Assembly: GCA_942159475.1 (NCBI GenBank)
Contig: OW804094.1
Coordinates: forward strand, 14,080,132-14,144,131
Reading direction: 5' to 3'
Length of the DNA: 64,000 bases
Origin: Sthenelais limicola
Taxonomy: Eukaryota > Annelida > Polychaeta > Phyllodocida > Sigalionidae
Shown: piece by piece, positions 10,319 to 59,316 of the stretch
Layout: every line of letters begins with the position of its first letter
Numbering within the stretch: position 1 is the first letter of the stretch
Position numbers and translations under genes: made by a program
Notes under the pieces: generated by a model
Seen by the model: the letters and a program-made list of their open reading frames with translations, nothing else
Database searches by the model: none
What the model was told of the DNA's origin: nothing

Positions 10319-10460
10319 AATCCACGACTTTGTGATCCATTTTGTTTTCTCTTATCAATTGTTAACTTCCCTTTGTCCCTTCGCCCTTGTTGGCAATCCC
10401 CGTAGACGGTATAGTATTTAACCCCACATTTTACATTGTTTAAACATCTAACAACATTAT

Positions 10461-23767: not shown

Positions 23768-24290
23768 TACCTTTGATGTAGTCGCTCAGGTGACATCCAT
23801 CAGCTGCCAGTAAATCGTAGAAGTTGGTGTGTTTGGGTTTGCCAGTTTCAGGGTTCCTCCTCTTGGGTTTGCTTCGATGAATCAATTCACCTACAAACGG
23901 GGTAAACAACCCCTGACTGACATTCATGCTTTTAACATATTTGTTGGTTGTATCTGTTTATATTTAAGCCCATAGTAGTTGCGAAAAATATTTGAGGTTT
24001 TTCCACCTCCAACGGAACAAGGGCTCTCAAGTTAGTGATAATCGTAGGTATTATTTGCTGTAATTCTTACTCAAAGATTGTTGGAGATGAGTGCTTCAAG
24101 GAAATTTGTTGATGTTGAATTTGTTTAGTTCTTTTAGTTATGTTACATATTCCTACCATGATTATAATGTACTTAGGTCTTCTTAATTGAACCACCGACC
24201 TTACCGAGTCTACAACTCGCTCTAGGTTGAGTCTACCAAATACTAGAAGTCTAGTATTGTCATTCGGCAAATGTCTTGCGCATTATCAGA
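23768..24290 (-). pseudogene. SGNH-hydrolase-like ORF fragment (LINE-associated)
   Basis: Pieces in more than one frame, with stops, align in order with the ORFs at 50109-50810 and 55749-56471: RRPKYIIIMVGICNITKR (block III GxxN), FFATTMGLNINRYNQ, LFTPFVGELIHR and AADGCHLSDYI (block V DxxH). Block I is not readable. The C-terminus is cut by the retroposon at 23611-23767. It is the third SGNH copy in the window. Confidence 0.75.
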
Positions 24291-39430: not shown

Positions 39431-39574
39431 TCGACGAAAGAAAACGGTCACAGGAGTATCAAACATCAAATCACTCCATTAATGATTGGTGGTCACATTG
39501 GTGAACTTTTCAGAAAATTATTCGTCGTATTATTGAAGATATTGCAAGTTATAAAATTCCGACCAGCATCAAAC

Positions 39575-40408
39575 ATGGAGGTCGCAGATGCAACATCGAG
39601 AGACATGGAGAATGACTCGATCTCGTCAGATGAACATGAACTGTTATCGAAGGTAGGAGAGAGAATCATAGATAATTGTCTAACTCATGAGTCAGAAGTG
39701 AATTTATCGGATATCGAGATTGGATTCAAGGAAGATTTTTTTGATCTTAGGACAGCATCAATTTGTAAAAAATCGGTGGAAAACATTGGGGAGAGTGCGG
39801 AGGAGTCTAGTGACAGTGACAGTAATGAATTAGATAAGGAGTCACAACTTGAACAAGTGGCTATCTCGAAGGTCACTGAGGCAGAAGTGGACGGCGAGTT
39901 GAAAAACCTTAATGAGTCTATTGTTATTGTAGATGATGTATCATCAGAAGTTGGTATTTCTCAATCATTACATATCCATAACATAGCTGTCGCGAGAAAA
40001 GAGGATCAAAGCAAATGGTCAGGTCTTAGAAATGAGGAGGAAAGAGAAGAAGTTGGGGACCTAAATATTCTATTGCCCCTGTCGTCAAAGTCAGAGTCAC
40101 TGTAAGGGAGTCAACAACTGACACTCATGGTCGGAGACGGCAGTCAGCCAGCAGTCGAACTAGTCCAACACTTAAATGAGACAATAGTAGAGGAAACAAA
40201 ATTGCCTGGAAAAATTGACCTATGTGACGTAGATGAGAATCTCATAAATCTTATCGTACAGAAGGTTGTAGAAAAGTTTGACCCAGAGAAATCAAGATTG
40301 GAAATGCTTTCGTTGGGTTTTGAAACTGCTGCCTCGAACAAAAAAGTGGCACATCTAATAGCGAGGGAGCAAGTTGTCAGAATAGTTCACTTTGTGATAC
40401 CTTCTTAA
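39575..40408 (+). CDS. Unidentified acidic ORF with one internal stop
   Basis: One frame from ATG at 39575 stays open to 40408, apart from a single TAA at 40103-40105: 176 codons before it and 100 after. The product is rich in Glu, Asp and Ser (SAEESSDSDSNELDKESQ) with helical segments, and has no domain I recognise. The base composition differs from the surrounding AT-rich DNA. It may be the ORF1 start of another LINE or an exon of an unknown gene. Nothing downstream within 400 bases is coding. Confidence 0.45.
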
Positions 40409-40502: not shown

Positions 40503-41260
40503 AAAATGGCCGCCACCAAAAACCAACTGCACCATACCTTGGCTTCTACTAACTGTATCTTCAAGTATAATACCAACTTATAGATGTTTTTGACTATGAG
40601 GAACCCATTTCTGAAAGTTATTTTTTGATTCAAGATCTTCAAGGTCAAAATCCAATATGGCTGCCGCTGTGGAACAAGAATCTCATATCTCCACTACTGC
40701 TAGCACCATATATCTTGTATAATACCATATTTCTATGTTTAATGTTGCCAGCAATCTATTTTAGAAATCATTGATCTGTATGAAGGTCAAGTTCAAGGTC
40801 AAAATGCAATATGGCCACCAGGTTTGGTTTGGTTTGGTTTGGTTAGTTTCACCTCCGCTAATAGTAATTAAAAGTTAGCAGATATACTGTGGTTTTATTA
40901 TTTTATTCTGTGAAATTCCCTATTTCATGAAACAGGGTTTGGCCTGACGAAGTCAGGCTTCATTTAGGTTACCTAAATTTTGTCGTACAATTTGGTTTCC
41001 CGTAGGAAATCAAGAATATTTTTGTTCCCAGATTCCCGGAAAATACTCTGCAGTGTCCTCCGATTTTGCAGGAATTTTATTCTGTTTCTCTTGGTTGCCC
41101 GACAATGTATTAAGAGATGCTCTACACTCTTCAAAACAACAATATCCTATCTCAGCACCTATAATTACTATATCAATGTATGATACCAATTTGTCTATGT
41201 TTTAATGTGCAAGGAATCCAATTCTGGGGTCCTTCTTGTATTTAAAGGTCATTTCTATAT
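40503..41260. repeat. Tandem repeat, unit about 151-154 bp, third unit split by a LINE
   Basis: Units begin at AAATGGCCGCCACC (40504), ATATGGCTGCCGC (40655) and ATATGGCCACC (40809). Each continues with an imperfect AC...CATA...AATACCA...TCTATGTTT...GG(A)ATCCA and ends in AAGGTCAAAAT(C/G). The third unit is interrupted at 40820 by a LINE tail and resumes at 41130. Units are diverged, so the array is old. Confidence 0.75.
40820..41129 (-). mobile_element. I/Nimb-like LINE 3' end fragment
   Basis: Minus-strand copy from the CCAAA tail back to the Cys/His finger codons. It shows small changes, for example CCGATTTTGC for CGCGATTTTGC-type text. It sits in the tandem repeat 40503-41260. No clear target duplication at the borders. 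Confidence 0.9.
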
Positions 41261-42141
41261 ATATATATAAGTATTTTTATTTCTCTTTATACAGGTACAT
41301 CAATCAAAGTCAAACAATTTTGGTCTTCCCATGAGGCCATGACCTATTACTACAATTACATTTACTACAACATTATTATTATCGGATATGTATTAACATT
41401 AATATTATAATTATAACATACATCATACAGTTTAACAAAAGTAATAATACACAATACAGGGTTTATTGCCCCGAAACATTTATATATTTTTGAGGTTGCA
41501 TTTTATGCTTACTCAATCTTACATGGATATTAACAACAATTTTTCGCCAGATTTATGGCTTTCTATGTACTACATGTACTAATTGCTACTAGAACATAAT
41601 ACAATGTTCTGGCACTCTCGAATTAAGATTCTTCCCCCTTATACTAGGTGGGTAAATATTTAATTCTTCAGTTTTACATATTTATTTCAAGGAGCTAAAG
41701 ACTTTAACAATTTTTTGTTTCTCGTTATAAGTAATATTAATTTTCCTCACCTTTATCAGACCAAATGTTATGGCCATATTTTAATTCTTCCAGTAATAAC
41801 ATATGTGTTCTATTTACAATCATGTCACGTGGTAACTTGTGAGCGCTTTCGTCACTCTTATTACATATACGGTGAGTTATATACTCATTTTCATTTTCAA
41901 TTCCTAGATTCATGAAATGTGTTGTTTCTATATTTCTCCTATTTATCTACTACAGTTTTAAATTCACAACAACTTAACCTTACCACATAAACATAGCTTC
42001 CTTGGTTTATTAGGTTGTATTTACTGTTTTAATGTAAGGATACATGTCTTCAACCCTACTAGTTACCCTTATAGCTCCTTATGTAAAAGGTATAGCTATA
42101 TTATTATTATATACAGATTATGTGGTTGGCTATTTATACAT

Positions 42142-43736
42142 TCATTTTTCTTCCTGTAAATCGGAAGCATAATGGTACTTCAAGAATCTCTTAAACTCCT
42201 TTAGTGTTAATATATTTTGGGGCCCTGGGTCCAACTCGCTCCACAAATAAGGCACTGTAGTAATGAAAGATCTACTTATTAGATCTAATTTGGGAGTGAC
42301 TGTCTTTAATTTTTTACCTTGAGCTAGGTATCTTAGGTTTATTTTCCTTCTATCAAGATTGCAGTCATTTTGTGCCATGTTAAAACCCCATTCTAGCAGG
42401 TGGGTCTTTCTACGCATATCTAGTTTTGGTAGATTTAAATCTAGATGTGTTTGGTCAGTATTCTCCAGTTTACCCCTTCTCTTTATTATTCTCACTGCCA
42501 TATTTTGAACAGTCTGGATTTTCCTCAGATCTGCCTTGGTTCCTCCATTATAAATTGTGTCCCCAAATTCTATAAGAGGCCTAACGGCCACTTTATAAAT
42601 ATTCAATAGGGTAGAATCATTTGTGGATTGCCTTAGTTGGGCTAGTTTGTGGATTTTATCACTTGCTGATCTTATTCTTACATCAATATGTTGTTTAAAA
42701 CTCAGTTTTCTATCTATCGTTAGTCCTAAGTATTTGTAGGTATCTGTGAAGTTAATTTCATTGTCTCCTATGAACCGTTTGTTTAAACTGTAGTCAGGCT
42801 TCACTCTCTTTCTATCAATAATCATCGCTTTTGTCTATTTGGTATTTAAGGAGATTTTGTTTTCCCTACACCAGATATCTACTCTATTTAAATCTTCTTG
42901 CAAATTTTTATTCGCATTTATTAGATTAGTGTCTGAGTTGTAAATTACGGTATCGTCCGCAAAAAGAATAATTTTGGAATTTTTTACCCATTTATGGAGA
43001 TCATTCATATAGATCTGGAACAGGAGTGGACCCAGGGCCGTTCCCTGAGGGACACCACATACTACCTTCTGGACTCCAGAACTTGTGTTATTTACACTTA
43101 CAGTTTGTTCCCTGCCACTTAAATAATCCTGAAACCAGTTTATCAACCTTCTTCCAATTCCTATGAATTCAAGTTTATTTATAATTCTATTGTGATCTAC
43201 CGTATCGAATGCTTTTTTCAGATCTATGTACGTTAGTGTCGTTCCTCTGTTTTCATTCAGATTGAAGTATATATCTGAAAAAAGTTCGAAATGGGCGTCG
43301 TTTATTGATAATTCTTTTCTAAAACCAAATTGATTCTGAAATAGTAGGTCATTCATTTCTAAATAGTTGTATACCTGTTTATGTGGAGTAATGATAGCCT
43401 TCTTGAAAAATTTGGGTACTTTCCCTGTCTCAATAGATAAGTTATACACGTATGTTATTTGTCTAACCAGGGACAAAAAGATAGGTTTCAGGATCTTTGT
43501 TGGCATATGTGGTATCCCTGAGGCCTTATATACGCTAGTTTTCCAAATTAATTCAACAATATCTTTTTCTTTTACAGGTTCCAGTTCAAATTCTTGAACT
43601 GTATCATTTGGTTTCATATATCCATTTTTGCTTAACTCTAACAACTCTTTGATTTCTTCACTCTCTTACTCCTTATCTGGAGGCACAATCTTCCCTGCCA
43701 GGTTTTTACCAACATCAGAAGAGAAATTATTAAAGA
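42142..43736 (-). pseudogene. Reverse transcriptase part of the NADAR-SGNH LINE
   Basis: One frame reads FNNFSSDVGKNLAGKI near 43730, then a TAA near 43665, then KASGIPHMPTKILKPI, NQFGFRKELSINDA, YIDLKKAFDTVDH, GVPQGTALGPLLF and FADDTV (catalytic). A TAG follows near 42828, then YKYLGLTIDRKLSFKQHI and the C-terminal LWSELDPGPQNILTLKEFKRF. About 30 residues containing NYRPISLL are missing after AIITPHK. The thumb and C-terminal region are complete and there is no RNase H. The upstream border is cut by a Helitron end at 43737. Confidence 0.85.
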
Positions 43737-44192
43737 CTAGCAAAGTACCCGTCCTCCGGACGGTCACCCTCTCTCCCCACAGTTCTCCCTCTCCCTCTTT
43801 TCCTTCCCCCTCTTCTTTGACATTCATACCTGTTTTTCTCTCCCAACCCCATCTCTAATTTCCCACGCCCCTATCCCTCCCCTCTTCCTCATTCTCCCCC
43901 TCCCTGCTTTCTCTCCCTCCCCTCTCTTCCTTCCCCGACATCCTCACTCTTGGTATGATGTAATATCATGTTATCGACCCCGAGAGAGAATTAGAAGGCT
44001 ATTTGTTGACCAACTGTCTTTATATATAGAATAAAACCATCCTCTCCTTCCTCTCTTTCAACCGCCTTCTACTTTCTCTCCCCCTCCCCTTCTCCTATTC
44101 TCTTCTTCACTCCTCACTGATCTGCATGTACCCGACGGGCAAATGAGCGCGATTCTACGCGATTTTTAATGCGCAATCATCTCGTCATAGTT
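43737..44192 (-). mobile_element. Helitron-like 3' terminus and pyrimidine-rich body
   Basis: Minus strand shows a hairpin CCGTCC-GGA-GGACGG (43763-43749), eight bases, then CTAG (43740-43737) followed by T: the diagnostic 3' end of a Helitron inserted between A and T. The body to the right (plus-strand C/T-rich to about 44140) has no helicase and would be a non-autonomous or truncated element. The left flank is coding sequence of the host LINE. The 5' end was not located. Confidence 0.65.
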
Positions 44193-45018
44193 CTGCTTCA
44201 GGCACTTGAATGGGTACAGGTCTCACAGATGAAGAAATTCATCATATTCTCAGACTCACACCCATGTCTAGAAGCTGTGACCAACCTTTATCCTAAGAAC
44301 TCAATCATACAAGCAATTCAAGAGACATACACTGAAAACAAAAGACTGGACAAAGAAGTGGTGTTGTGCTGGGTGCCAAGCCACATTGGAATAGAAGGAA
44401 ATGAGGCAGCAGACATTGCAGCCAAAAATGCATTGAGGCGCCCTGTTGGGGCTGACCAAATGCCATACACAGACATTGTACCTGTGGCGCAGGCACATGT
44501 CAAACGTAGCTGGCAGCGCTCATGGAATGGTGTTAATAGTAACAAGCTGCGAGCAATCACACCATCAATCACACCAAAATTCAAAGATGATAACCTGACA
44601 AGACCCGAACAGGTGATACTGACCCGTCTTCGTACCGGTCACACCAAACTGACTCACAGGCACCTTCTAAAAGGTGAAGTGGCTCCTGTATGTCAGACAT
44701 GCAACACTCCACTGAGTGTAGAGCATCTCTTGATACATTGTCAGGCAACCAAGAGAAGCAGAATAAAGTTCCTGCAAAATCGCAGGACACTGCAGAGTAT
44801 TTTCCGGGAATCTGGGAACAAAAATATTCTTGATTTCCTACGGGAAACCAAATTGTACGACAAAATTTAGGTGAAATGAATGAAGCCTGACAGGCCAAAC
44901 CCTGTTTCATGAAATAGGGAATTTCACAGAATAAAATAACAAAACCACAGTATATCTGCTAACTTTTAATTACTATTAGCGGAGGTGAAACTAACCAAAC
45001 CAAACCAAACCAAACCAA
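44193..45018 (+). mobile_element. I/Nimb-like LINE copy, 5' truncated in RNase H
   Basis: Begins at ALEWVQVSQMKK in RNase H and runs through VPSHIGIEGNEAAD, the CQTCN finger, 3' UTR and CCAAA tail. The frame (44198-44870) is intact. The 3' UTR is of the AGGTGAAATGAATGAAGCC subfamily, and the second arm of the first hairpin is shortened. It lies inside the minus-strand LINE between RT and endonuclease. Confidence 0.92.
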
Positions 45019-45115
45019 GTGTGCTGTACAATTTTCTAGTATGCCACTAGGTGGCCTATAGACATTCACGTTAATCATACTTTTTGAACCTCCTTTTACT
45101 ATTGATAATATTTAT
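45019..45115 (-). pseudogene. Endonuclease middle piece of the NADAR-SGNH LINE
   Basis: Minus strand reads SIVKGGSKSMINVNVYRPPSG then ILENCTAH, matching the VINVYRPPQSS block of the fragment at 21490-22164. It is stranded between the LINE tail ending at 45018 and the CR1/L2-like insertion at 45124. About 45 residues between RQDRL (48.2 kb) and this piece are missing, and the frames differ. Confidence 0.7.
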
Positions 45116-45123
45116 AATCAATC

Positions 45124-47706
45124 CACTCCTATCCACTCCTACTGTCGAGGCTCAATGGATAATCATTCGCCACCCCAATCTCAAACCTATCATAGTGGCT
45201 AACATTTACCGCCCTCCCTCCACAGTAGTACTTCCTTTCATTTCATATCTGAACGAATCTCTCAGTAAAATCCAGGACCTGGTGAAAAATTAACTGCTAA
45301 TTCTTGGAGACCTAAATGTAGACATGTCCTCGATTAAACCAAGCACCACCGAACTAACCAACTGGGCCCAACAACACCATCTGACCCAACACATCTCCGA
45401 CTTTACCAGAGTCTCAAAACTGTCCTCCACCACTATCGACTTAATTTTCTCAAATATAAAATATGTAGCCAATACAGGTGTTCTGCTGTCAAACATCAGT
45501 GATCATCAACCAGTATTTCTCCTCAGGAAAAAACAGAAATGCTCAATTCCAAAAATCACAAAGCATGGCAGATCCTTTCGAAACTTCTCCTATGACTCGT
45601 TTAGGAATCTACTTCTAACAAACCCTCCTGACCTATCCTTCTCAAACAACCCGGATGAGATCTGGGACTCCCTACATGCGCACATAGCCTCTGCAGCTGA
45701 TCAGATCTGCCCTATCTCTCAAATCAGACTCCCAGCGTCAAATCCTCCATGGATTAACACGGAAATACTGGAGGCAATAGCCGACAGAAATTATTGCCTC
45801 CGCAAAGCAAGGCTCCTCAACGACCCAAATGTATGGGATCTCTCTAGAGCCCTCAGAAACAAGGTTAACTCCCTAATTAGATCTTCCAGAAAGCACTACA
45901 TTTCAACCTATCTCGATAACCATGCTAGTGACCCGTCTAAATTCTGGTTCGAAATGAAAAAACTCCTACCAAATAAGAAGAGTAAGGCTCTGTTCTCACT
46001 ACCTGGAGTCAAATCTCACGACCTCCCCTCGCATGTGAACTCCTTTTTCGCCAATATTGGCCCGCAATTAGCTAGCGCCATCCCAAACCCTCCACCTGGC
46101 ACCCCGCCTGACACTCACCCTTCTGCACAAAATGTGGCTCCCTCATTCAGACTAAAACCCATCCCTGCTCAGGAAGTGGCCGAAATTATCGATAGCCTGG
46201 ATATCAAAAAACCCTCCGGCATCTCAAACCTGAACACCAGACTGCTCAAAATTGCCATGCAAGTCCTGCTGCCACAATTCACCCACCTTTTCTCCACCTC
46301 CATTGAAACTGCGACCTTCCCAAAAGCCTGGAAACTAGCAACAGTTATCCCTCTTCCAAAAGTGAAATCACCACATTCCCCTTCCGACCTCAGACCAATC
46401 TCCCTCCTACCTGTCCCAGGTAAAGTCCTAGAACGCATTGTACATTCACAAACCTATGACCACCTCGAAACTTTCGGCCTTTTACACCACAAACAACATG
46501 GCTTCCGCACAGGTAGATCAACCCAAATAGCTTTATCAGAAATTATCGATGACATCACCAATAACTGTAACAATAAACAACCAACAATAGCCCTTTTTAT
46601 CGATATGAAAAAAGCCTTCGATACAATAGACCACTCAATTCTGACCAACAAACTCTCAGCCATTAACTTCCATCATGAGACTATTTCATGGTACTCAAGC
46701 TATCTTGAAGGAAGGTCGCAAAGAACCAAAATTGGGGACATGGTGGTCCCCCCAAGCCTCTCTCTCCACAGGCGTCCCTCAGGGGTCCATCTTGGGCCCG
46801 CTTCTATTCAACCTCTATATAAATTCTCTCCCCTCCTATATCACCTCCACTAACCCCTCTCCTATCTCCTGTCAACTCTATGCTGACGATACTGTCCTCT
46901 ACACGTCAGCCCCAGACATCAACGACGCCGCCAAGGCCCTCAATGCGTCAATTCCGCACCTAGCAAACTGGTGCGGAATTAACAAACTGACGATTAATGC
47001 TAATAAGACCAAAGTCATGGTACTATTCCCTCCCCTGAAACCCAGTACCCCACCAGTCATTGACCCTCTACAATTTGCCATCAATGGCACCCCAATTGCC
47101 GTAGTCAATGAATTTAAGTATTTAGGGTCCACAATTGACGACCGTCTAAGTATCACCCCTCAAATCAAACTAACCCTCAGGAACACAAATGCTGCTATTG
47201 CCACCTTTGCAAAAATCAGACCCTTCCTCTCACATAACATAGCCTTCAGGATACTAAAAACCATGATCCTCCCACACCTCGAATTCAATTCCTGCTTTCT
47301 AGACATGGCAAATGCCACATCCAAGGCTAAACTAGAAAGAACCCTTAGAAGAGCTGTCCGCATTGCCTCCCTATCTAGGAGAACAAGCAATGTCGATGAA
47401 ATTATGTCCCAAAACAACCTCCTGCCTCTACAAACTAGACGCACCCTCCAACTCCTCCTCCTAATGCACAGGAGGGCCCACAGCGGGCCCCCCCCAAACC
47501 CACCTACCCCTAACATAACCCGGGACACTAGGGCCTCCTCCATCTATAACCTCCCCATTCCTCGCCCGAAAAGAGAGGCGTGCAGACGTGCACCTGCCTA
47601 CTCAGGAGGCACCCTCTGGAATGAGCTGCCCAAATCAGTAAAAAATGAACATGACCCCCGATCATTTAAAACAAAAGCCCTACAAATCCTGAAATCAGGC
47701 CGTTGA
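45124..47706 (+). pseudogene. CR1/L2-like endonuclease (partial) and reverse transcriptase
   Basis: Frame one: VANIYRPPST, an in-frame TAA at 45291-45293, ILGDLNVDM, STTIDLIFSN and ISDHQPVFL (endonuclease end); a linker with PPWINTEILEA; RT motifs DLRPISLLPVPGK, QHGFRTGRSTQIA and FIDMKKAFDTIDH. At the C-run 46748-46753 one extra base shifts the frame, which resumes as STGVPQGSILGPLLF, YADDTVLY, EFKYLGSTIDDR and, near the end, LWNELPKSVKNEHDPRSFK. It has only two lesions (one stop, one indel) and a missing N-terminus. Confidence 0.87.
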
Positions 47707-48188
47707 GGTGACTCAACTATAGGCAATTATCACCCCTCTAAATACTGTATTTAATCGCTGAAACCCTAGTCATTTCTGTCTAATATTTTCTTGCATTTGC
47801 ACACTGATTTGAGGTACTGTTTATTACCTAGCATTGTTCTGTAGTATATAGTATCAACTTCGAAACTTCAATGACTCTTATGTACTACACCGTACTGCAT
47901 TATATCGTATCAGCTAATTCTCCAGATAATGTAGTATTTTGTCCAAGTATTATACTGTAATATATTGTATCAACTTGTAGCTTTCAATTACTTCCATGTA
48001 TTGCATTGTTCCGTATTGTATTATATTGTATTCACTAGAAAACGTAGTATATTTTTTCCTATCCACATATGTTAATCGAAGTAGACTGCAGCAGCAGGTA
48101 AAACGCCACAGACTTATATTGTGTTACCTGTTCTCGACTGTATCGTGCATATTTTGTCTTGAGAAGCTGGATAAATAAAATCATTAAA
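45124..48188 (+). mobile_element. CR1/L2-like LINE, 5' truncated, 8-bp target duplication
   Basis: Flanked by AATCAATC at 45116-45123 and 48189-48196. It starts within an endonuclease domain, carries RT to 47706, and ends after a 480-base 3' UTR in GGATAAATAAAATCATTAAA, a tail of the CR1/L2 type. The codon content is C-rich compared with the neighbours. It inserted into the endonuclease gene of the NADAR-SGNH LINE. Confidence 0.85.
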
Positions 48189-48196
48189 AATCAATC

Positions 48197-48413
48197 TGTC
48201 TTGCCTGTAAATTTGATACCCTCGAATTGATATTTGAGAATCATCTATTTTCTCATTTAACCAGGTTTCTTGTATGGATATTATACTTGGTGTCACTTGA
48301 GATGTAAAAGAGTTGACACCCATGATTTTAGGTTTCAAGCTTCTAATGTTCCATGAGAACAGCGAGATTCCTTTTTTCTTTCCAAACTCTTCTAATTTAA
48401 TCGGTATATTCAT
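48197..48413 (-). pseudogene. Endonuclease N-terminus of the NADAR-SGNH LINE
   Basis: ATG at 48413, then SLFSWNIRSLKPKIMGVNS, ISIQETWLNEKI and GYQIYRQDRL, where the CR1/L2-like insertion interrupts. Same start architecture as 22164 and 10318. This is the beginning of the third ORF of the element. Confidence 0.78.
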
Positions 48414-50108
48414 ATGGTATATATATTTTACTAGTCCCTAGTACCCTTGTGGTTGGTAAATTATTGGGGAAACATGAATTTCTCCCTTTCATGGGATTCC
48501 CCTTATATTATATAAATTATAAGACATTTCGATGTATAATTTTAATTTTCTATATTTGCTACTCAATTCCTTCTTTTTATTGAAATATTATTCAACTTCC
48601 CTATTTGTGTTCACTCTATCTTCTTTCTGTTCTATACATGAATTTCCTTAAATTGTTCCCTTAATCCACCCATATTCATAGTGATTTACTAATTTTAAGT
48701 CTCCATCCTTGTCCCCTGATAGTGCTCTTTTGTCCCGACGTTCCTTAGAAATGTCCGGTTAAGATTAATATCATTGGGATTAGGATTAAAGAATCATCCT
48801 ATTCGAAATAGTATGCACTATCTCTCCTTTTTTGTAATCCTTTCTGAGTTGGATACTAAAATATTAAATACTAAATACCTCTCTGACATTTTTTGTCTTC
48901 CTCAAAATCCTACACCTTGGATAGTGACCTATCTGTCGAAACGTTCAATAGAAATGTCTCAACTAGGTTTACTAACTTCCGGGCTAGTTTAGAGGATTAC
49001 AAGAAAATACTAAATAGAATTGAGAATGAGAGCCTCCCTGGTAAAGATAAATATAAGCAATAACGAGAGAAGGAAAGAAGAGAAAAAATTATGGGCAAGA
49101 TTCCTGGACGAAACAGCTGATTGTATAGCAAAGCTAAAGAGGTGATGTGTTGAAACGAACGGTCGCAAAGGGGCTCACGTTATTGCCGCCAACGAATATC
49201 CGGCCAACCCTTGTGTTAATTAAGTAGCCATAAAACCATCTGAACCTGTCAAGTAGCAAAAAGTTAAATGTAGGTTTTTATCCTAGATGTATCCTTCGCC
49301 AACGATGTCTACATGTGAAGTAATAAAACGATGTCGCAAAAAAAAAAAAAAAAAAGAAAATACTAAATACTCAAAGGTTTTATCAGTTACATCACCATTA
49401 TAATAATAATATTTACGTATTATGTATTTATGTACTGGACCTCTTCCTATTTGAGTACATATTATTCAATCCTATAGGACCTTTTGAATATACTCCATGA
49501 TTTTATGCTGGAAAATGTTCCACTGTTTTTCATTTAAAATGTTTCTGTGTCCATCAAGTCATTCATTTAAATTATTTGGCTTATATCACAGGTTCTGTCC
49601 TAAATATATTTTGCAATTTATAATTAGATATGGTGTTCCTTACAAACCAAACCAAACTTGGATTCAGCTTCCCTGCGTAGACAGTTCTTTACTTCTTCTA
49701 TTCATTTATCTTCATCGTTCATTACACTATATATATATATATGAGGTATGGTTCATACCTTATGCGTATGTTTCTGATTATATATTCCACTGGTGTTGAC
49801 AAAGTCGTTTTTCCCCCATTCTTTCTCCATGTCTCCGTCACAACCACGTTCCATACAAATGTAGTTGCTCAGGATACATTTAGACAACCATGATAACACT
49901 GATGCATTGATTATATAATTCTGGTAATATATTTCATTGGTATTTCTATGGTTGTTTTCCTCCTTCGTTCCCCATGCCTCCGTCACAACCACGTTCAATA
50001 TAAATGTAGTTGATCAAGAAACATATAGGCAAAGAATGAGGTTCAACCATGATTAAACTGATTCTTCGAGTAATTATATCTAGAGCACTATATGCTTCTA
50101 TTGATATA
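48414..50108. other. Spacer between SGNH ORF and endonuclease ORF of the LINE
   Basis: About 1.36 kb once the retrocopy at 49017-49353 is removed. AT-rich, no coding region. It has an imperfect direct duplication around 49800-49870 and 49970-50010 (CATGCCTCCGTCACAACCACGTTC-type text). A TATATATA tract lies at 49730-49742. Confidence 0.45.
49017..49353 (+). mobile_element. Poly(A)-tailed retrocopy of an unknown transcript
   Basis: Flanked by a 16-base direct repeat AAGAAAATACTAAATA at 49001-49016 and 49354-49369, and ending in about 17 A residues. AATAAAA lies about 14 bases before the tail. The 5' end reads KINISNNERRKEEKKLWARF then LDETADCIAKLKR and a stop at 49145-49147, followed by a 190-base 3' UTR. 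This is a 5'-truncated cDNA of some polyadenylated RNA. Parent gene not recognised. Confidence 0.88.
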
Positions 50109-50810
50109 TTAAAACTGGATTTTGTTATACGCTTTTGCTATTTGGTTGGTGTATTCATCTTTCATTTCCTCATTGAGGTGGCATCCATCTTCTAACTTGC
50201 TATAGAAGGCCGAATATTTTGTTGCCCCGTTCTTTTTCTTCTTTTTCCCGGCTATGCAGCGATGGACCTTTTGTCCCACGTAAGGGGTAGGTGCCCCTTC
50301 TTGTGTATAATAGATTTTGGCTAGGTTACTGAAAATGATGGTTCTCTCATTGATTTCTTTCTGGATCGCTGGGTAATGGCACTGCCTTGGATTTATTATA
50401 CCCCTGCCCCTCTCCATTTTGAGGTTATATTTTTTAATGTCAATCCCAGTCATCGTTGCATAAGAGATCAATGGGTTGTAACCTTGTACCACTGCAGCTG
50501 CTTTTAAGTTTTGGATAGCAGAACTCATAATAACTCTTAAGTCCTCTTCACAGACAGCTGATGATGAGTGTCTTAACTTAACTTGCTCACCAAGATCTTC
50601 CTTACTTCTTATAGTGATATTGCATATGCCTGCTACGATGAAGATAGCTCTAGGGCGATGAAGATTAATAATGTTGGCTGCTTCTCTAACCAATGTTTCG
50701 ATGGTAGCCCCTCCGATTGATATTACTCGCAAGTTGACCCCTGGTAAACTCGTGCGTAACCGTCTCGCTAGGTCTCTCCCTCTCGAATCCATAAGCAGGA
50801 GAAGGTCCAT
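50109..50810 (-). CDS. SGNH-hydrolase-like protein of the LINE
   Basis: 233 residues from ATG at 50810, with no stop. SGNH blocks: I at LLLMDSRG (Ser9), III at VAGICNIT (Gly61/Asn64) and V at LEDGCHLNEE (Asp208/His211). A conserved middle motif ATMTGIDIKKYN and the TPYVGQKVHR segment are shared with the other two copies. SGNH esterase domains are known in the ORF1 of some CR1/L2-type LINEs, where the role is uncertain (lipid or membrane interaction has been suggested). Here it is a separate ORF, 86 bases downstream of the ORF1 stop. Confidence 0.8.
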   Translation of the reverse strand: MDLLLLMDSRGRDLARRLRTSLPGVNLRVISIGGATIETLVREAANIINLHRPRAIFIVAGICNITIRSKEDLGEQVKLRHSSSAVCEEDLRVIMSSAIQNLKAAAVVQGYNPLISYATMTGIDIKKYNLKMERGRGIINPRQCHYPAIQKEINERTIIFSNLAKIYYTQEGAPTPYVGQKVHRCIAGKKKKKNGATKYSAFYSKLEDGCHLNEEMKDEYTNQIAKAYNKIQF

Positions 50811-50896
50811 GGTGTTGTATCCGATGTTATGATCTTAATTCTCAGTCAGTCTATCTAGTACTCTGTTCAGTATTCTGCCAAAGGTATTTTGTCCCA

Positions 50897-52492
50897 CTAC
50901 TTCTTCGGTGTCTCTTTGCGGGCGCCATCTTGAATCTTAACCAAGGGGTGCCGTATACCGGCTCCCCACTTTCTCGATGTCGTTAACTCATTTTGTACGA
51001 ATTTCTGCAGTACAATATCTTCTAAGATCTGTTCTTCTCTCATTAACCAGTTGTCGTCAACCCGTAGCTTTCCTCCCCAGTCCTTAGCAACCGCCGGGTT
51101 GTTTACATTAGCGATATCCTCCGCCATTTTGCCTTTCCCCACCGCGTATGCCTTCGTAGCCTGGAAACAACGTTCCGCTGACTTGTAGAATCTGTGATTG
51201 TATTCGAATTGTGCTGGATGAAAGTTAGATAATGGGCTATGAACCCCTTTGAATCCAACTCCCTTTGACTCCACCTTAACATGAAATACATTCTCCGGCT
51301 GACAACCAGTCGGTAACATGTCTAGATCATGTACTGTGAAAGTGCCATTCCCTGTCATAATGTGGTTGGCAACTAGAGTCTAGTCGATTCCATTTAGTTT
51401 TAACAATCTGTGTGTATTTTCAAGTAGCATGTGTTGGTAACCATTGTTTTTCTTGCTAAACTTATTCAACCAGAATTTTCTGTATTTTTTCTCTCCTCCT
51501 ATTTTACTGCTGGCTTTGACTATCGTTACTTTCGTGTCGACTGAGTCAACCTCAACATAGATTCCCCTTCTTCTTCCCAGTTTAGGTTTTCCTATCCTGT
51601 ACACTGTTGTGACATTTTCCTCTTTTATGTTTTGATTGGCTATTTGGAATATGGTCAGAACTTTCTCCTTTAGTCTTTCATTTTTATCATTTAACCGTAT
51701 GATAGCATTCAGTCATTCTTGGGAATCCACTTCTAAGTTTTCCCACTCCTCTTCGGTCCCTTCGACAATCAAAAACTTTTCAGCCGCCTTTTCAACCCAA
51801 ACTTTCTTATCTTTTTTAGCCTCTTTTCCAACAGGGTTAACTTTTTCTTTTGTTTTAGTGGTGTATCCTCTACTTGTGATCTCCTCTTCCTCTGCTTTCC
51901 TCTTTATTTCATTCCTTTTTACTACTTCTTGGGATTTTTTAAACCGCCTTATCTCTTCCTCTAAGTCTCTCATTCTACGGTTGTATTCCTTCATTGTGTC
52001 GGATTTTTCCCCCACTATCTCTTCGAAACTGTTCCCAATCTTTAATGTTTCTTGTTTGATTTGATGAAAAAGATCCTCGAATCTATATTCTAGTTGTAAG
52101 ATACCGTTATTGAAGTTTTCCAACTTTTCATCTACCTTTATTTCACCAACCTTATCTTGTCGTATGGTTTGTGAGGCCGTTGTAGCCATCGCCGCTTTAG
52201 TCACCTCCTCCAAAGTGACCGTTACGCCTGCAGCTGCACATTCGCTCAATCTCATGTCTTCGATTTCCATTGACCATGTTGAATTTTCGATAATATTATC
52301 AAAAATAAACGAATCTCCAACCTCTTCCACTGATCTTATGCTCCTCTCTGCTGTTTGCAGGGCATTTTCTATCGATAAGTTGATTTCTGCTATACAAATT
52401 TCAATATTTTCGATGTTTTCGAATTTTTCCGCCTGGAAATATGGCGGCGACGTGGTTTCCACGCCTACCGTCCACCTCTTTTCACCTTCCAT
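50897..52492 (-). pseudogene. LINE ORF1: coiled coil + RNA-binding region + NADAR domain (two stops)
   Basis: A single frame from ATG at 52492 to 50897 (532 codons) broken only by TGA near 51715 and TAG near 51379. The first 250 residues are charged, with coiled-coil character (RRMRDLEEEIRRFKKSQEV). Then come an RRM-like stretch (EKFLIVEGTEEEWENL) and the ORF1 C-terminal type region (TVYRIGKPKLGRRR...WLNKFSKKNN). A NADAR/YbiA-like domain ends it: GVGFKGVHSPLSNFHPAQFE, FYKSAERCFQATKAY, VAKDWGGKLR and SSRKWGAG. The NADAR Glu (SAER) and Trp-Gly motif are kept. The RNA-binding part should coat element RNA; NADAR proteins cleave ADP-ribose-type bonds. Confidence 0.82.
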
Positions 52493-52815
52493 CCTAAATA
52501 ACTTTTGTTATTTCGATTTCTGAATTCTCTTCTTTTTCCTGTTTGTTCTTCAATCACTTATGTAAGACTTGAGTAGCTTTGTCTTATAATTTTCGCTGAT
52601 TTTACCAACCACGGGACTAAAAGGATCTCTGCACTTAGACGTGCATATCCGCTCACTTTGAGTTTCCCGCCGTTTTGATGCTCTAAGGTCAAAAGCTATT
52701 ATTTCTGATCTTTTTTAAGTTCAATATTAATGGTAAAAAGGTAAAATGTAAAAAAAACTTAAGTTCTGCAAAATGAGTTTGTTTTAAGTGTTAGTTAGAG
52801 TAATGCCATTTCACA

Positions 52816-54110
52816 TCACTCAAGGTTGTTGCAGCAACCACCCTGACATTTGCACAATGGTGTGCACCTCAATCCTGCTTTAAAACATTTGCACCTCCCT
52901 TTACATGCTTTCATGCAAGTGCAGTGAAGCATGAGTGAACAGGATGCACTAGCATCTCCCAAGTCTGTCCAATATGGGATCCATGTCTTGAGGCGTCCAT
53001 TCCATTCCCAACCATACAATGCAGGATCTGGCAGACATAATCGCTTCTCCAAGGCTCGATGCCAAATGAAAGCTGACACCAAAATTGTTCTTTAAACATG
53101 CTGGTACAAGGCTGCTCTAGTGGGGGGATGCTCTCTAAGGACCTAAGACTGTGAGTGAACAGTAGTTGTCGTGCATCATTTACTGTAACACAGGAACAGT
53201 TCTTACTGTACATATATATACATAGAATTTTTATTCAGTAAATAAATCTTACAGAATTGGACGAATACATCTACGGATAGATCTTCCAGTAAGCCCGGAA
53301 AAGCACTGTACATAAGCACTGTAAGTTGTTCAATGCGCTACATGTGGAGGGAATCCTCTGTCAGCTCTTGCGGATTTTCAATTAAGCTTACCATTGTCTC
53401 AGTGACATTAGGAAAGTTCATCCAAGCATTCCATCCAGATTTCTTCCCAATGCCTAGCATGCTAGATGTTATGTCACAACCTGTAAAGGCATGGAAAAAT
53501 GGAAGTGCTTTACATCTATCAGGTCCAAGCTGCAAAGAAAGTTCATGAACTGGTATATCAGTGTATGCCTTTCCACTGCCAAAGCCAACCCACAACTCAA
53601 TAAGCCCCAGACTTTCAAATGTTGTAAAGAGATGGATAGACAAGACAATGACATCAGAATCAAAAGTCCTGATGAAAGCCCTCTTATGGCCGGCAATGAT
53701 TGGCATGTCACAGGTGCAGCATCATCCGTGTGTCTACCTCCTCATGGTCAGATGGAGTGATGTCAGACAATTCTAATAGCTTGTTAGACAGCACAAGTTC
53801 CCGCTTTGTTGTCAAGAGCTGGTACTCAGATCTGGAAGTTGCCTTCACAAGCTCATCAGATAGAAACTGGAAGAGTTGATCTTTATTTTCACTAACTTTC
53901 AGGAATGCCTGCCAATCTTTTCCTTTGGGGATGGGGACCTTTTCTGAAACTCTTGTCCTTCGAGCAACTGTCTCACCAAGACGTTTCATACGTGTTTGAT
54001 GTTTTAGACTATCCTGAGGATAGCAATCCCAGACTGCATCTATTCTTGTAGCACATGTGATTGATCTGATTTTCCATGAAAGGCAGGAGATGCATAAACA
54101 GAAAACTAAA
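52816..54110 (-). pseudogene. Uncharacterised gene ending in a CXC-type Cys-rich motif, retrocopy-like
   Basis: Without visible introns the minus strand reads TRIDAVWDCYPQDSLK, KEKVPIPKGKDWQAF-like text, DITPSDHEEVDTRMMLHL, then (new frame) RAFIRTFDSDVIVLSIHLF, ELWVGFGSGKAYTDIPVHEL, ALPFFHAFTGCDITSS and GIGKKSGWNAW, then further frame changes to a terminal HCTCMKACKGRCKCFKAGL...CQGGCCN with a stop at 52816. The EADTRM...DTDV...HAFTGCDT pattern marks a large uncharacterised family in invertebrates and fish. At least two frameshifts. It lies between the two head-to-head LINE copies. Confidence 0.7.
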
Positions 54111-54164
54111 CAATTCCAATACTTGGAATGAGTTGATGAAATAAATGAATCGTACCCCAAGGTT

Positions 54165-55633
54165 ATGGAAAGTGCTAAACTCTTCGAATCAGACAGACTC
54201 ATGTTTATGAAAAGGACCAGGGCGAGTGACGAGGAAACTAGTAAGGCCAAGGAAACTAATGTAGTAGCTGAAAGAGCAGAGGCGACAAGCGAGAATATTT
54301 ATCAAAGCATAGTAGAAAGAATTTGTAAGCTTGAGAAAATAACTGAAGATTATGGTCCTACTGACACTGAACCAGACAAAAAAAATGAATGATATTGGGC
54401 CTGAAGTGGCTTCTCACAAGAAGAGCAAAACTAAGGCCAAGCGGGGTAGGAAGAAAGTTAAGGCCAAGGGAAAACCAAGTACGCAAAATAGAGAATTGAA
54501 AGTAATGGAGAGGGAAATAAATGATTCCATTGGCGACATCAATCTATCGCTAGAGGAAGGTCAGCAGGAGCTGAGCCAAATGAAAATCAATCTAGGTATG
54601 ATGGAAAAAAATCTTGATAAAATATCTAGAGAACTATCTGACGTGCAAAGTAGAGACCCTCTCCACATAGGCCAACAAAATGAAGGGAAAGCTGACGGCT
54701 CGACCCACCTAATAATGGAGGGTGTGCCGGAGGAATGGGATAAATACCCAATAAAAGATCACATGAATTAAAAGAAAGAAAAAAACAAAGTATTTTATGA
54801 GTGACTTACTGAATTCTGTAACGGGGATAAAGTTGGAAGACATCACGGATGCGTACCGGGTCGGTATTCTGAAGAAGGGGAAGACTTGTTCAATCTTTGT
54901 TGAGTTATCAAGCCCGCAAGTGAAGAAATCTGTTCTAAATGAATCAAAGGAGATCAGAAGAAGGACAGGAACAGGAATCTGGTTCAATAAATTCGTTGTA
55001 GATCAGAAAGATAAAGATTATAGGATGCTTGTTGATTGCCACAAACTGTTACGCATGAAGAAGGTCCAAGCTGACCTAGTTCTCAAGCATATCAAAATAG
55101 ACAACAAAACATATGCTCAGGAAGATCTGCATCATTTACCAAAGGGTTGCCAGCCGTCCGATGTTGCAAATTTCCCGGTGGAAGGAGGAGGGGTGGGTTT
55201 CCATGGTAACCACAGCCCTTTCTCCAATCGGATAAATATTGAGTATAAGGAGAGAAAATTTGTCAAAGCAGAGCACGCATACCAGTGGGACACAGCCCAG
55301 TTCTTTGGGAACCATGAGGCCGCGTGGAAGATATGCGGGACTCAGAGCCCAGCCCACGCGAAAGCCATAGGCGGCAAGTTGGATGCGGCAGTAACCCCTC
55401 AGCAAATGGATGACTGGAGAAACATTGAGGAGAAAACCTTGGCGGATATTGTGAAAATTAAATTCACAAAAAATAAAGATCTAAAAGAAATGCTGTTAGC
55501 TCCAGAAGATACAAGATTTTACGAAGTCACCAGCTCAAGGAAGTGGGGGATTGGGCGTTGGGTGCGGGGTGTCATCATTGCAAATGGCGCCCGTGTCCCG
55601 CTCAAGACCAAAACATTCCAAGGTGAAAATTGA
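54165..55633 (+). pseudogene. LINE ORF1 with NADAR domain, second copy (two frameshifts)
   Basis: ATG at 54165. The frame shifts at an A-run near 54378-54385 and again in A-rich sequence near 54770, then stays open to 55633. Order: charged helical N-terminus, basic patch (KKSKTKAKRGRKKVKAKGK), coiled coil (SLEEGQQELSQMKINLGMM), RRM-like start (THLIMEGVPEEWDKYP), C-terminal RNA-binding region (TDAYRVGILKKGKTCSIFVE) and NADAR. In the last 278-residue frame, NADAR spans about 130-265, with HSPFSN, KAEHAYQ (Glu159) and SSRKWGIG (Trp250). Same architecture as the minus copy, but only moderately similar in sequence. Both frameshifts are in A-runs, so sequencing error is possible. Confidence 0.8.
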
Positions 55634-55748
55634 TTCGGGCAAATCTTGGATAAACTGAGAGCTGAACTTATTCGTCAATGACTATACGAGATAAAGAAAG
55701 GAAGTGAGAAGACTGATTTTGATTTAGAGTGGGATCTAGAGTATAATT

Positions 55749-56471
55749 ATGGCTCAAAACAGGAAGGAACTTCTGTTATTATGCGATTCATGTGGCTCAG
55801 GGCTCCGGCTCACATTACAGACCGTAGCCCCTGAGATCGATTCAGACGTGTTTGTGCTACCCGGAGCTGGAACACTCGGTATAGTTAGAGGTGCAAGGAA
55901 CTTGCTCATGAGTTATAGACCGTTAAACATCATTATCCTATCTGGCATCTGCAATATTACCACTAAAGACAGGGAGTCGAAGGAAGTCCGACTCCGTTAC
56001 AGAAGTGAGGTGGAAGTTGACACAGCAGCCACCGATGATATGACCTCGGCGGTGCAGATAATAAATCAAACTCTACCAATGAATTTGTCGCCACCTCCAA
56101 CAGTCATCTTCGGCACAACAATAGGCCTTGACCTTGTTGTGTACAACCAAAATTCGGCAAGACATAACTGGAGACTCCGCCGGCTCCTGACTCCAGAAAA
56201 GATCATGGCGATCGAAGAAGACCAGGAGCTCCTGAATAGACAGGTAGTCGCCTACAATAATAGTGTCAAGAGATTCTGTAAAGAGAGGGGGGTGCCAACA
56301 CCGTTCATCAGCACGTTGATACATCCACATAGGTCCTCACGTAAGCACAAAACCACCAAGAGGATGCACTACTCCAACTTGTACTTCCTCCTGACGCAAG
56401 ATGGTCACCTAACGCCTGAATTGCAGATGAAAGTTGCAGAAGTGGTGGTATCGGCCAATATAATAAACTGA
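55749..56471 (+). CDS. SGNH-hydrolase-like protein of the LINE, second copy
   Basis: 240 residues, intact. Block I LLLLCDSCGSGL (Ser14), block III ILSGICNITTK (Asn69), middle motif GTTIGLDLVVYNQ, then TPFISTLIHPHR, and the end LLTQDGHLTPEL. Block V here reads Asp218-Gly-His220, one residue shorter than the DxxH of the other two copies, so catalysis may be impaired. It starts 115 bases after the NADAR ORF. No endonuclease or RT follows, so this copy lacks the third ORF. Confidence 0.8.
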   Translation: MAQNRKELLLLCDSCGSGLRLTLQTVAPEIDSDVFVLPGAGTLGIVRGARNLLMSYRPLNIIILSGICNITTKDRESKEVRLRYRSEVEVDTAATDDMTSAVQIINQTLPMNLSPPPTVIFGTTIGLDLVVYNQNSARHNWRLRRLLTPEKIMAIEEDQELLNRQVVAYNNSVKRFCKERGVPTPFISTLIHPHRSSRKHKTTKRMHYSNLYFLLTQDGHLTPELQMKVAEVVVSANIIN

Positions 56472-59166
56472 ATAACTGGTCACTGTCTCTCACACTTACG
56501 GTCCTAGTAGAAACAGGAGCTCACTCGAACCCGACTTTGAAAGGTACCGCTAATGTGAGGTAGACAGAAAAACTCAGACTAAATTGGTGGGAAAATAACT
56601 AATCCGAGTGTTATTAGGAAATTGAGCATTGTTCATAGTAAATAGTATTGTAAGTTGATCACTGAAATTGAACTTCAATGACTTGTCCGAAAATTTATCA
56701 TTAAGTTTTGAGCTTTACAAAGGGGGTCTCACTCCTAGTCAAATAATCGGATAATCGCACTCAATAATCGCATTCAATGTTTCAAATGTAGTATTCTTCT
56801 TGTCTGGTCAACCTGAAAGTTGAAAAGCAATGAGAAGGGAGATGGATGTTAAGTGCAGTTATAGACAGCTGATGGCACCTCATAATAGAGACAGGAGATC
56901 TCCAGAACCCGATTTCGAAATGAGAAGCCATGGTAGTCTAGCCATTGTTCTACTCCTCCTAGTGATGAAGTAAATTCAGGGAGCAATGTTATCATATCCT
57001 CCTAGTGATGAAGTAAATTCAGGGGTAATGTTATATGTAAACTGTGTGACTTGAAACCAAAATTGAAAACAAAAATCAAAAATCGAATAATCAAAGAAGT
57101 ATTTGAAATAAGATAATGGAAAATTATTTCGGAGACTTTATGAAAATTTAGAAGTGACCCATCTTGATGATAGCTTGTACCCCTAACCAAAAGTGACCCA
57201 TCTTGATGATAGCTTGTACCCCTAACCAAGTACCTTTATGTATTGTATATTGTACCGTATCATGTCAAAATGGGCGAACCCGGCATGTTTACCCGAGTGA
57301 CACAGCACCCGCCGTTTGATGCGGGAAAGGTGCGAGAATACTATGTCTGCCGCCCAGCTGTATGGGCGTCGCACGAGGACGGTAGTCTTTAGCTTTAATA
57401 CCTATCGCTGGCCTAGTGTGCCCGGCGACTGCACTAGCTTTTTTGTACAGCCGTACTATATGTTTTCACGCGAGAGGGGCTGTACTCTTTTGGGTGTACA
57501 ATATCAGGTCTAACACATCAAAAGTAATGAAAATAATGTATGACTCTGATATGTATATCATGTTATCATATAATATATTATTGGCGGGTGGAGGAAAGTG
57601 AGAAAGAGAGAGACAGAAAGAGTAGAAATTAACGTTCATTGGGATGTGTTTGAAAGATTTGGTATCCCATAGGATATAATGGTGTATGATGATCATGCTT
57701 AAAATAGACGAAATACATATAAAATTGTTTTTGTTACTGACGTCACAGCGCTGGCCGCGGCTCGCCATACTGTGGGTCAAGCTTTGTAAACCTTAGCTGG
57801 ACATGTGTGTTCCAAGCCTCGAAAATGCTGTTTTCCGGCCGTTTTCACCCCAAAAAGTTTGAGCGAATGTGATATAATGTATGCTGATAGGTTCAATGGT
57901 CATTTTTTAGTGTGTCATGATGGGGAAATAAGTATAATAGCCTACTAATTACTACTCCCTCCACTTAAAAATCGCCAACGATTATATATGAATATGTATT
58001 ATTTCATAACTATGCCAAATATGCGTAATGATTACGCGCGGCGGTGACGCATGCCTGCTACTAGTGAGATCCAAATGATGCATATGGTTGAATTCCTTAT
58101 TTCCTCAGCTTTCTGTAGATATAAAAAATGTGCATTTAAAAAGAATATTTAATATGATAGAGTATTTACCAAAGATAATCATTTATTTCTTTTGCTGGAG
58201 AATAATAAAGTATAGCATGGCTGAACATGCTCCTGGCGAGGTTACAGAGGATTAAGGTACTATATGGTACAATTCATGATACTTCTTTCATAGGCTCCCT
58301 ATTTTGCGACTTGTACTCACCAGGTGGCCGTACTTGTTTTTCACCAGGTGGCGTGACAGGTCACTGCATTGCATTTATAATATCTTTAACAATAAAACTA
58401 CCGCTAATACACTAATGTGGCATTTATACACTATTTATATTGTCCAACAAATACTTATGAATATCATAAGTGATATTCTTCTAGAGTTTATATGTATAAT
58501 GTATATGTATGATGTTGGGAATCGACCTGATCAAACCACCCATATAACTGTACATATGATTGTGGGTAGTCAGCTGGGAGGGTCTAAACTCATCAACCAT
58601 CAAAATGATTCATACACAGAGGTCTGAATATGCAGGGCCAGTGCTGATGATAAATGATGAATAAAAGGATGCAACCTATGCTGTTGTACCTTTAAAAGCT
58701 ATCTGGGCTGTAGATGTTCAATCTAAAGTTGCCTTCAGTTTGCTACTGTGACTGAACATACCTGGCAAACAATCCTTCATGGGAAAGGTAGAGCAGTAAA
58801 TTTATACTAACAATTCTCATAATAATAATTAGCAAATATTCAAGTTGAATCCAAGTAATCTGAGCCCCACCTGCAATACCCTACCTGCCCTGGGCATACT
58901 AAAATATGCAGCCAGATGTGCAACCAAAGTGCAACCAAAGTGCAGCCGAGCCAAAGTGCAGGCGGATGTGCAAGGCTGGCTTACACTGGCTGCACTTTTC
59001 CCTGAATCCGGATGTAGTCCGTGGCCATGCAAGGGCTGCGCATCCTAAGTGCATCCGCGCAACCTGGGTAGGGGCCCACTCGTTTAGCCACTTTAATTTT
59101 GCAACCAAAAAATCAACACCACAAGGAGTTGACAAAAGATCTATTTGGGAAAATGGCTAAAAAAAG
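56472..59166. other. Intergenic with small tandem duplications
   Basis: Two adjacent direct duplications: CCTCCTAGTGATGAAGTAAA repeated at 56955 and 56998 (43-base step) and AAGTGACCCATCTTGATGAT repeated at 57152 and 57191 (39-base step). The GC-richer 57260-57490 segment has short ORFs I cannot identify. 58910-59045 has repeated GTGCA(A/G)CC words, perhaps part of a small repeat. No gene supported. Confidence 0.5.
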
Positions 59167-59316
59167 TGTAATCATGGAAGCCGAGGCCTTTAGTAAACTA
59201 AAGGGCCTTGTCCCGATACTTGTGCTGCCACCTACAGGTCTCGAGGAGACCGTTGTAACCATCGGACAATAAAGTCACTCCATAACTCAATCTCGTGTCT
59301 TGCAGTTATCATTACA
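59167..59316 (+). mobile_element. 150-bp LTR of a Ty3/gypsy-type retrotransposon
   Basis: Starts TGTAAT and ends ATTACA, with AATAAA at about 59268. It is immediately followed by TGGTACCAGCGAG, which has the form of a tRNA primer-binding site. A gag start lies 44 bases further on. Unusually short for an LTR but consistent in all signals. No second LTR was found in the window. Confidence 0.7.

Follow-up and report, generated by a model that had tools for sequence, protein, structure and literature searches.

A three-gene LINE family in the annelid Sthenelais limicola combines a NADAR-bearing ORF1 and a predicted SGNH esterase ORF with an endonuclease-reverse transcriptase

A 64,000-nucleotide stretch of the genome of the polychaete Sthenelais limicola (assembly GCA_942159475.1, contig OW804094.1, positions 14,080,132 to 14,144,131 of the forward strand; hereafter the window) contains members of an unusual group of long interspersed nuclear elements (LINEs). 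We show here that these belong to a three-gene LINE family, in which a first open reading frame (ORF1) ending in a NADAR domain is followed by a separate SGNH ORF and then by an ORF that joins an APE-type endonuclease (EN) to a reverse transcriptase (RT), an order that is constant in all copies checked. Our preferred reading, at a probability of roughly 0.55, is that of a three-gene LINE whose NADAR domain is predicted to strip guanine-linked ADP-ribose from the element's own RNA and cDNA, and which further encodes a predicted SGNH esterase and an APE EN-RT. A single LINE with three ORFs would thereby carry two enzyme domains in addition to EN and RT.

Genome-wide copies keep a single gene order

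The preliminary description of the window had placed NADAR and SGNH in the repeat unit that ends with the RT, and the genome-wide copies bear this out. We searched the assembly (1.13 Gb, 161 contigs) with the C-terminal half of the plus-strand window ORF1, NADAR included, and obtained at least 135 scored matches out of 4,405 first-look candidates, at identities of 45% and up, all match counts being lower bounds. Among the best 30 of the 135 matches, which include the window copy and were taken as short loci (loci carry an L number), an SGNH match begins 98-147 nt 3' of the NADAR match and on the same strand in 30 of 30, with just the first third of SGNH recovered in L017. Six 10-kb stretches were picked by rank, at about 2, 30, 58, 79, 107 and 128 of 135 as counted by hand, and all six carry ORF1-NADAR, SGNH, EN and RT in this order on one strand; EN-RT is a single open frame in three of them (L032, L033, L035) and broken in the other three (L034, L036, L037), the RT of L037 being interrupted within itself.

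Three copies (A, B and C) have 8.05 kb in common at 99.2-99.5% identity, which suggests recent activity. All three frames are open in the L033 copy and encode proteins of 863, 241 and 971 residues; ORF1 and SGNH are 64 nt apart, and a spacer of about 0.8 kb separates SGNH from EN-RT. In the two remaining 8.05-kb copies, ORF1 is shortened in B and EN-RT in C. A TA run terminates the 3' end of all three full-length copies, copy A is without the approximately 20 nt of 5' end common to B and C, and L032 is 5'-truncated, beginning within ORF1 at a microsatellite. The link as seen in the window alone rests on broken copies carrying nested insertions, and left room for the view that NADAR and SGNH are host genes, or a separate cassette, lying beside LINE fragments by chance. 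Because the genome-wide copies keep the order (30/30 and 6/6 colinear places) and the 8.05-kb copies of this dispersed, multi-copy unit are near-identical with common ends, such a chance neighbourhood is ruled out for practical purposes. In L036, an extra SGNH piece upstream (64-414, +) and a second, more distant EN downstream (8928-9533, +) probably belong to other elements.

The NADAR domain is conserved and under purifying selection

As the preliminary description had supposed, profile searches recover NADAR (PF08719) in both window copies above the Pfam cut-off of 35.1 bits, with 58 bits for the plus copy (54,767-55,633) and 46.3 bits for the minus copy (50,897-51,379); over all scored copies the range is 46.3-71.3 bits. 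The matching PDB entry is 8bau (E 6e-4 for the plus and E 0.0065 for the minus copy), and through its alignment we placed the contact residues given in PMC11543638, with an inferred numbering offset of 2 (papers cited by PMC number are drawn on here from the portions of their text available to us). Of 33 copies, 32 keep E43, all keep K50 and W89, and 32 keep W133 (one stop), while the catalytic Glu E125 is kept in 30, the exceptions being two stops and one Gly. A Glu at position 125 is described as a mark of the YbiA subfamily (PMC11125620). The domain is under purifying selection: of the 276 pairs among 24 sequences, 15 have an unsaturated dS, and all 15 give a dN/dS of 0.087-0.172. NADAR further matches phrog_1017, a phage family of unknown function in PHROGs (66 bits), and the PADLOC candidate defence protein model PDC-M42C (27 bits); the minus NADAR found no relative in a search of a genome-contig collection. 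According to the available text of PMC11833690, NADAR is the only enzyme family reported to take ADP-ribose off guanine in RNA.

A predicted SGNH esterase and a coiled-coil ORF1 with a hydrophobic leader

The second ORF encodes a predicted SGNH (lipid) esterase. Its S, G, N, D and H catalytic blocks are kept in 33, 33, 33, 32 and 32 of 33 copies, respectively, despite divergence of the proteins to 32-60% identity with the L033 copy. Neither the plus-strand SGNH protein nor the C-terminal half of the plus-strand ORF1 had a protein-database match at E <= 1e-3, in a search by 5-residue words that is weak evidence of absence, and a search of viral contigs returned no relative of these two or of the window RT piece.

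Upstream of NADAR, ORF1 features a coiled coil, whose heptad score, a simple home-made measure, was reached by 0 of 300 shuffles for the plus copy and 4 of 300 for the minus copy, followed by a part resembling an RNA recognition motif and ORF1 C-terminal domain (RRM/CTD). Most intact ORF1s additionally begin with a hydrophobic leader at the N-terminus, about 30-38 residues long and followed by a second Met, as seen in L033, L034, L035, L037, the joined copies and the window frame 39431-40105 (+); such a leader is unusual for a LINE ORF1. We measured it as the highest Kyte-Doolittle mean of any 17-residue window among the 45 residues that start at the first Met, in the 12 copies whose 5' frame is long; 4 of 16 rows were excluded as broken, truncated or unfinished, two rows represent partial proteins, and near-identical copies occur among the 12. 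The maximum was 1.69-2.82 in 8 of the 12, 1.16-1.39 in 3 and -0.24 in 1, and in 11 of 12 it lies above all windows from residue 61 onward.

A covarying RNA hairpin precedes the EN-RT ORF

The spacer between SGNH and EN-RT contains a conserved, often doubled hairpin with the tip GG.G.TC....GA.CCC. Occurrences were picked by the tip pattern (38 rows), so that the tip is invariant in part because it was selected for, while the outer helix played no part in picking. In an alignment of 21 of the 38 rows built without reference to structure, 81.2% of cells are paired, versus 66.5% in shuffles; both-sided changes occur in 72 cells, versus 30.9 +/- 4.7 (0 of 500 shuffles); and the covariation score is 0.434, versus 0.197 in shuffles (0 of 500) and 0.116-0.175 for the slid structure, a comparison that favours the structure because it was chosen after viewing folds of the same sequences. 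Taken by itself, folding energy gives little signal (mean z -1.8 for 29 sequences against simple shuffles). A covariance model (R1) built from 21 of the hairpin sequences matches in 32 of 34 distinct places (absent in L017 and L037) and is doubled in 16, the short loci ending about 0.67 kb past SGNH. By coordinates, the 50 listed matches (L014, L018, L024, L032 and others) all lie 3' of SGNH on the element's strand. Rfam gave no gathering-level match in 8 loci. With the threshold relaxed to E <= 3, nothing matched the hairpin in the 3 loci searched; outside it, L014 gave a weak lncRNA match (E 0.82), which we take as chance. A ribozyme reading of the hairpin found no support in Rfam, none of whose ribozymes matched. 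In the minus-strand family of the window, the corresponding part of the spacer holds a doubled hairpin-forming unit of different sequence (49810-50032).

The EN-RT is likely of a clade outside L1/Tx1

EN and RT are encoded in single frames (979 and 983 codons) that match PF03372/PF14529 and RVT_1. The RT of the minus window copy shares 40% identity with L033 ORF3 (E 1.5e-99), and in an RT tree it groups with five NADAR-LINE RTs and five database proteins with support 98/96; 12 of the 21 inner branches were left open, and the inner order is poorly resolved. Against PDB, the full L033 RT reaches 57 bits with human L1 ORF2p and 38.4 bits with an R2 protein (9nl2), and the partial window RT finds R2 (E 1.7e-6) ahead of L1 (E 0.026). 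Another window LINE scores 83.6 bits to L1 ORF2p and is itself probably not L1, given a C-terminus that is RNase H-like by eye; nothing in the lower score of the NADAR-LINE RT therefore marks it as L1/Tx1, and it likely falls outside that group. An L1-type assignment of the EN was rejected, since no L1 EN stands among its 7 PDB matches. The CR1/Jockey label is likely and not settled, the tree references being database proteins without named LINEs. An RT alignment search of contigs gave a weak RT match in one contig (L001).

The window holds two old related families

In the window, ORF1-NADAR is followed by SGNH on both strands and, in the minus copy, by EN and RT; at a third place (24.3-21.5 kb, minus), SGNH pieces are followed by an EN of the same clade. 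The features are as follows.

50900..52507, minus: ORF1 (coiled coil, RRM/CTD-like part, NADAR); frames, stops, alignment with the plus copy
50900..51300, minus: NADAR, approximate limits; PF08719 E 7.1e-12, PDB 8bau E 0.0065
50109..50834, minus: separate SGNH ORF; motifs DSRG, GGA, GICN, DGCHL and predicted fold
49810..50032, minus: two 78-nt units (83% alike) in the spacer after SGNH, each folding as a long hairpin (single-sequence fold)
48882..49354, no strand: spacer insertion of about 470 nt, approximate limits, not part of the element; 13-nt flanking repeat, by eye
48189..48437, minus: EN, first part; 53% to the EN at 22 kb, 42-43% to L033/L035 ORF3
45130..48189, approximate, plus: nested 5'-truncated LINE of another family within EN, not part of the element
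45040..45110, minus: small middle piece of EN (..NVYRPP..) beyond the nested LINE; by eye versus the EN at 22 kb
42145..43665, minus: RT and C-terminal region; RVT_1 E 1.8e-28 (42,835-43,665), a single TAG, fingers incomplete by eye
41260..42141, minus: likely 3' untranslated region with a TA run at its end; sequence
54130..55633, plus: ORF1 in three frames via two frameshifts (by eye); L032 nucleotide match 80% from 54,130
55220..55560, plus: NADAR, approximate limits; PF08719 E 1.8e-15, PDB 8bau E 6e-4
55749..56471, plus: SGNH ORF; block V one residue shorter (DGHL)
56486..56569, plus: conserved RNA hairpin, first; R1 66.4 bits, E 2e-14, sequence included in the model
56864..56947, plus: conserved RNA hairpin, second; R1 60.7 bits, E 7e-13, sequence outside the model
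59069..59208, plus: start fragment of the EN-RT ORF; 81% to L032 4987-5126, the start of its EN-RT frame
23757..24282, minus: third SGNH copy, in pieces; window comparison
21493..22164, minus: EN of the third copy; PF03372 E 1.5e-11 (21,490-22,164), 40-41% to L033/L035 ORF3
10028..10351, minus: EN fragment (EN start) of the same clade; window and L-locus comparison
39431..40357, plus: 5' part of another ORF1; frame 39431-40105, and 45% to L033 ORF1 residues 251-294 at 40226-40357 (E 1e-5)

The preliminary description had treated the plus and minus copies as one family, a view that we abandon at protein identities of 37% (RRM-like/NADAR part) and 29% (SGNH); tblastn within the window gives 36% for the ORF1 C-terminal halves and 28% for the SGNH ORFs. 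Such low identity indicates that the window holds two old related families rather than copies of one. Identities at codon positions 1, 2 and 3 (0.55/0.59/0.33 for ORF1 and 0.47/0.51/0.30 for SGNH) fit long protein-level selection, and the NADAR part (53/119 residues, 45%) stands above the RRM/CTD-like part (42/141, 30%). The minus ORF1 has in-frame stops at codons 265 and 376 of 536 and, aligned with the plus copy, shows a gap within NADAR; further on, EN and RT are separated by a fragment of another LINE, of a third family, and part of the EN and linker is absent. The parts of the minus copy are A-rich in composition, which we judge a weak sign. Nucleotide similarity of the plus copy to L032 runs over 54,130-56,571 and resumes at 59,069-59,208, with about 2 kb of other sequence between. 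By eye, about 110 nt of target appear to have been lost at the insertion at 45130-48189.

Proposed function and alternatives

ORF1 of other LINEs binds element RNA, and the fusion of NADAR to ORF1 would put its activity on that RNA. ORF1 likely multimerises through its coiled coil on the element RNA, where the NADAR that it holds could remove guanine-ADP-ribose and so keep it from blocking translation and reverse transcription; the hydrophobic leader and the SGNH protein may together place the ribonucleoprotein at membranes, and the spacer hairpins have a putative role in translation of the third ORF or in binding of the ribonucleoprotein. EN-RT would then insert the copy by target-primed reverse transcription, as LINEs generally do. 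Given this anatomy, we favour a predicted counter-defence acting on the element's own nucleic acid, at about even odds. In animal RNA viruses, NADAR has been proposed to counter host ADP-ribosylation, in the available text of PMC9503650. The fuller picture of a LINE lineage armed against nucleic-acid ADP-ribosylation, with an ORF1-held guanine de-ADP-ribosylase, membrane anchoring by leader and SGNH, and a doubled hairpin to express or package EN-RT, is tentative and well short of even; if true, hosts would be expected to possess an innate defence that attaches ADP-ribose to the nucleic acid of retrotransposons.

Several observations weigh against the preferred reading. The ADP-ribose-contacting R79 of the P. 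nicotianae NADAR is kept in 0 of 33 copies, as is the R93 contact (29 Glu, 3 Asp, 1 Lys); these are contacts of one member, not defining for all NADARs, and with both changed the pocket or substrate may differ. The NCBIfam riboflavin-intermediate N-glycosidase model gives 55.9 and 50.5 bits, below its cut-off of 73.7. For the SGNH ORF, no Pfam model lies above cut-off (Lipase_GDSL_2 at E 0.13 in one copy), PDB sequences lend no support (a GDSL chain at E 0.81, behind an unrelated Tektin chain), and the predicted fold of the minus protein, which matches SGNH hydrolases, comes from a model of mean pLDDT 53. The RRM/CTD part (Transposase_22) finds no Pfam match in the window and genome-wide copies, and the predicted ORF1 fold, of low confidence, did not confirm it. 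The leader is clearly hydrophobic in 8 of the 12 copies and absent in 1, no clear target-site duplication is seen at the ends of the three full-length copies, and dS was usable in no pair of EN or RT sequences. We know of no host enzyme that tags the element.

The altered arginines and the riboflavin-intermediate model, which is the best NCBIfam match though below cut-off, would also suit a NADAR that acts on small molecules such as free ADP-ribose derivatives, NAD-derived signals or riboflavin-type intermediates, so that the LINE blunts a soluble host signal; the available text of PMC9503650 suggests that many viral NADARs act on soluble ADP-ribose derivatives, yet argues that those of eukaryotic RNA viruses mainly target macromolecular ADP-ribosylation. 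As NADAR here is fused to a LINE ORF1 rather than free-standing, we consider a small-molecule role unlikely. The same two unconserved arginines, together with the shortened block V of the plus window SGNH, could point to NADAR and SGNH being catalytically idle and serving as RNA- or lipid-binding scaffolds, which we regard as distinctly improbable, since the catalytic Glu (30/33) and the S-G-N-D-H set (32-33/33) are kept even where SGNH has diverged so far. It is also rather unlikely that the element is simply the NADAR-bearing Tx1 LINE of the oyster in another species, with an SGNH ORF overlooked there: NADAR does occur in ORF1 of oyster Tx1 LINEs (PMC12477816, available text), and the full L033 RT prefers L1 ORF2p to R2 (57 versus 38.4 bits, 9nl2), but those 57 bits fall below the 83.6 of the other window LINE, itself probably not L1, and the EN-RT ORF of 971 residues is shorter than L1 ORF2p at about 1,275 (PDB lengths).

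Relation to known elements and NADAR systems

The preliminary description knew of no account of the whole element, and on this point it stands in part: NADAR in a LINE ORF1 is already in print, in one sentence on several Crassostrea gigas Tx1 LINEs (PMC12477816), while no description of an element with NADAR, SGNH and EN-RT was found in the full-text literature, where matches were partly covered and subscription papers and Repbase reports were few. New here are the three-ORF layout, the mostly hydrophobic ORF1 leader and the covarying, often doubled hairpin before EN-RT. The C. gigas elements share NADAR within a LINE ORF1; compared by description only, the available text on them mentions no leader, hairpin or separate SGNH ORF, and the present RT likely lies outside L1/Tx1. 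The Ectocarpus Gypsy long terminal repeat (LTR) retrotransposons treated in the same text are also retroelements that gained NADAR, which was suggested to process the RNA intermediate, whereas here NADAR terminates a LINE ORF1.

The SGNH part has its closest likeness in the esterase (type IV) ORF1 of CR1/L2 elements such as ZfL2-1, which lies upstream of EN-RT with the same S-G-N-D-H residues but is an ORF1 domain there and a separate ORF behind an ORF1-NADAR here; in the available text on a survey of 448 Jockey-superfamily elements, esterase ORF1 is confined to vertebrate groups (PMC3905857, PMC4120745), and a further report places it in RTEX (PMC5408684). Bdelloid LTR and Penelope-like elements likewise carry an SGNH enzyme as an ORF of its own (GDSL/SGNH ORF3), yet they are of other element classes and hold it at another position, NADAR being unmentioned in the text available (PMC5408684). 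With the DarT1-NADAR toxin-antitoxin system and free-standing YbiA NADARs, as far as the available texts describe them (PMC11543638, PMC11125620, PMC11833690), the domain shares its fold family and the YbiA-type catalytic Glu; unlike these, it is fused to a LINE ORF1, and no partner ADP-ribosyltransferase ORF is seen in the element.

A LINE that keeps the NADAR catalytic Glu under strong selection offers a natural system for the role of nucleic-acid ADP-ribosylation and for the restriction of mobile elements. Many of the NADAR "genes" annotated in invertebrates could, moreover, be LINE ORF1s.

Other features of the window

Another LINE family is represented at 11496-16634 (+), with a zinc-knuckle-like gag and an RNase H-like C-terminus (both by eye) and near-identical 3' ends on both strands; related fragments lie at 20.8-21.25, 28.46-30.5, 38.86-39.15, 40.82-41.13, 44.1-45.02 and 62.8-63.25 kb. 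Tandem repeats occupy 59658-60374 (period about 131 nt) and 25820-26346 (period about 58 nt). Between the two head-to-head copies, non-LINE frame fragments at 53338-54298 (-) and 52850-52950 (-) include a cysteine-rich stretch, which we take to resemble a CXC (tesmin-like) motif.

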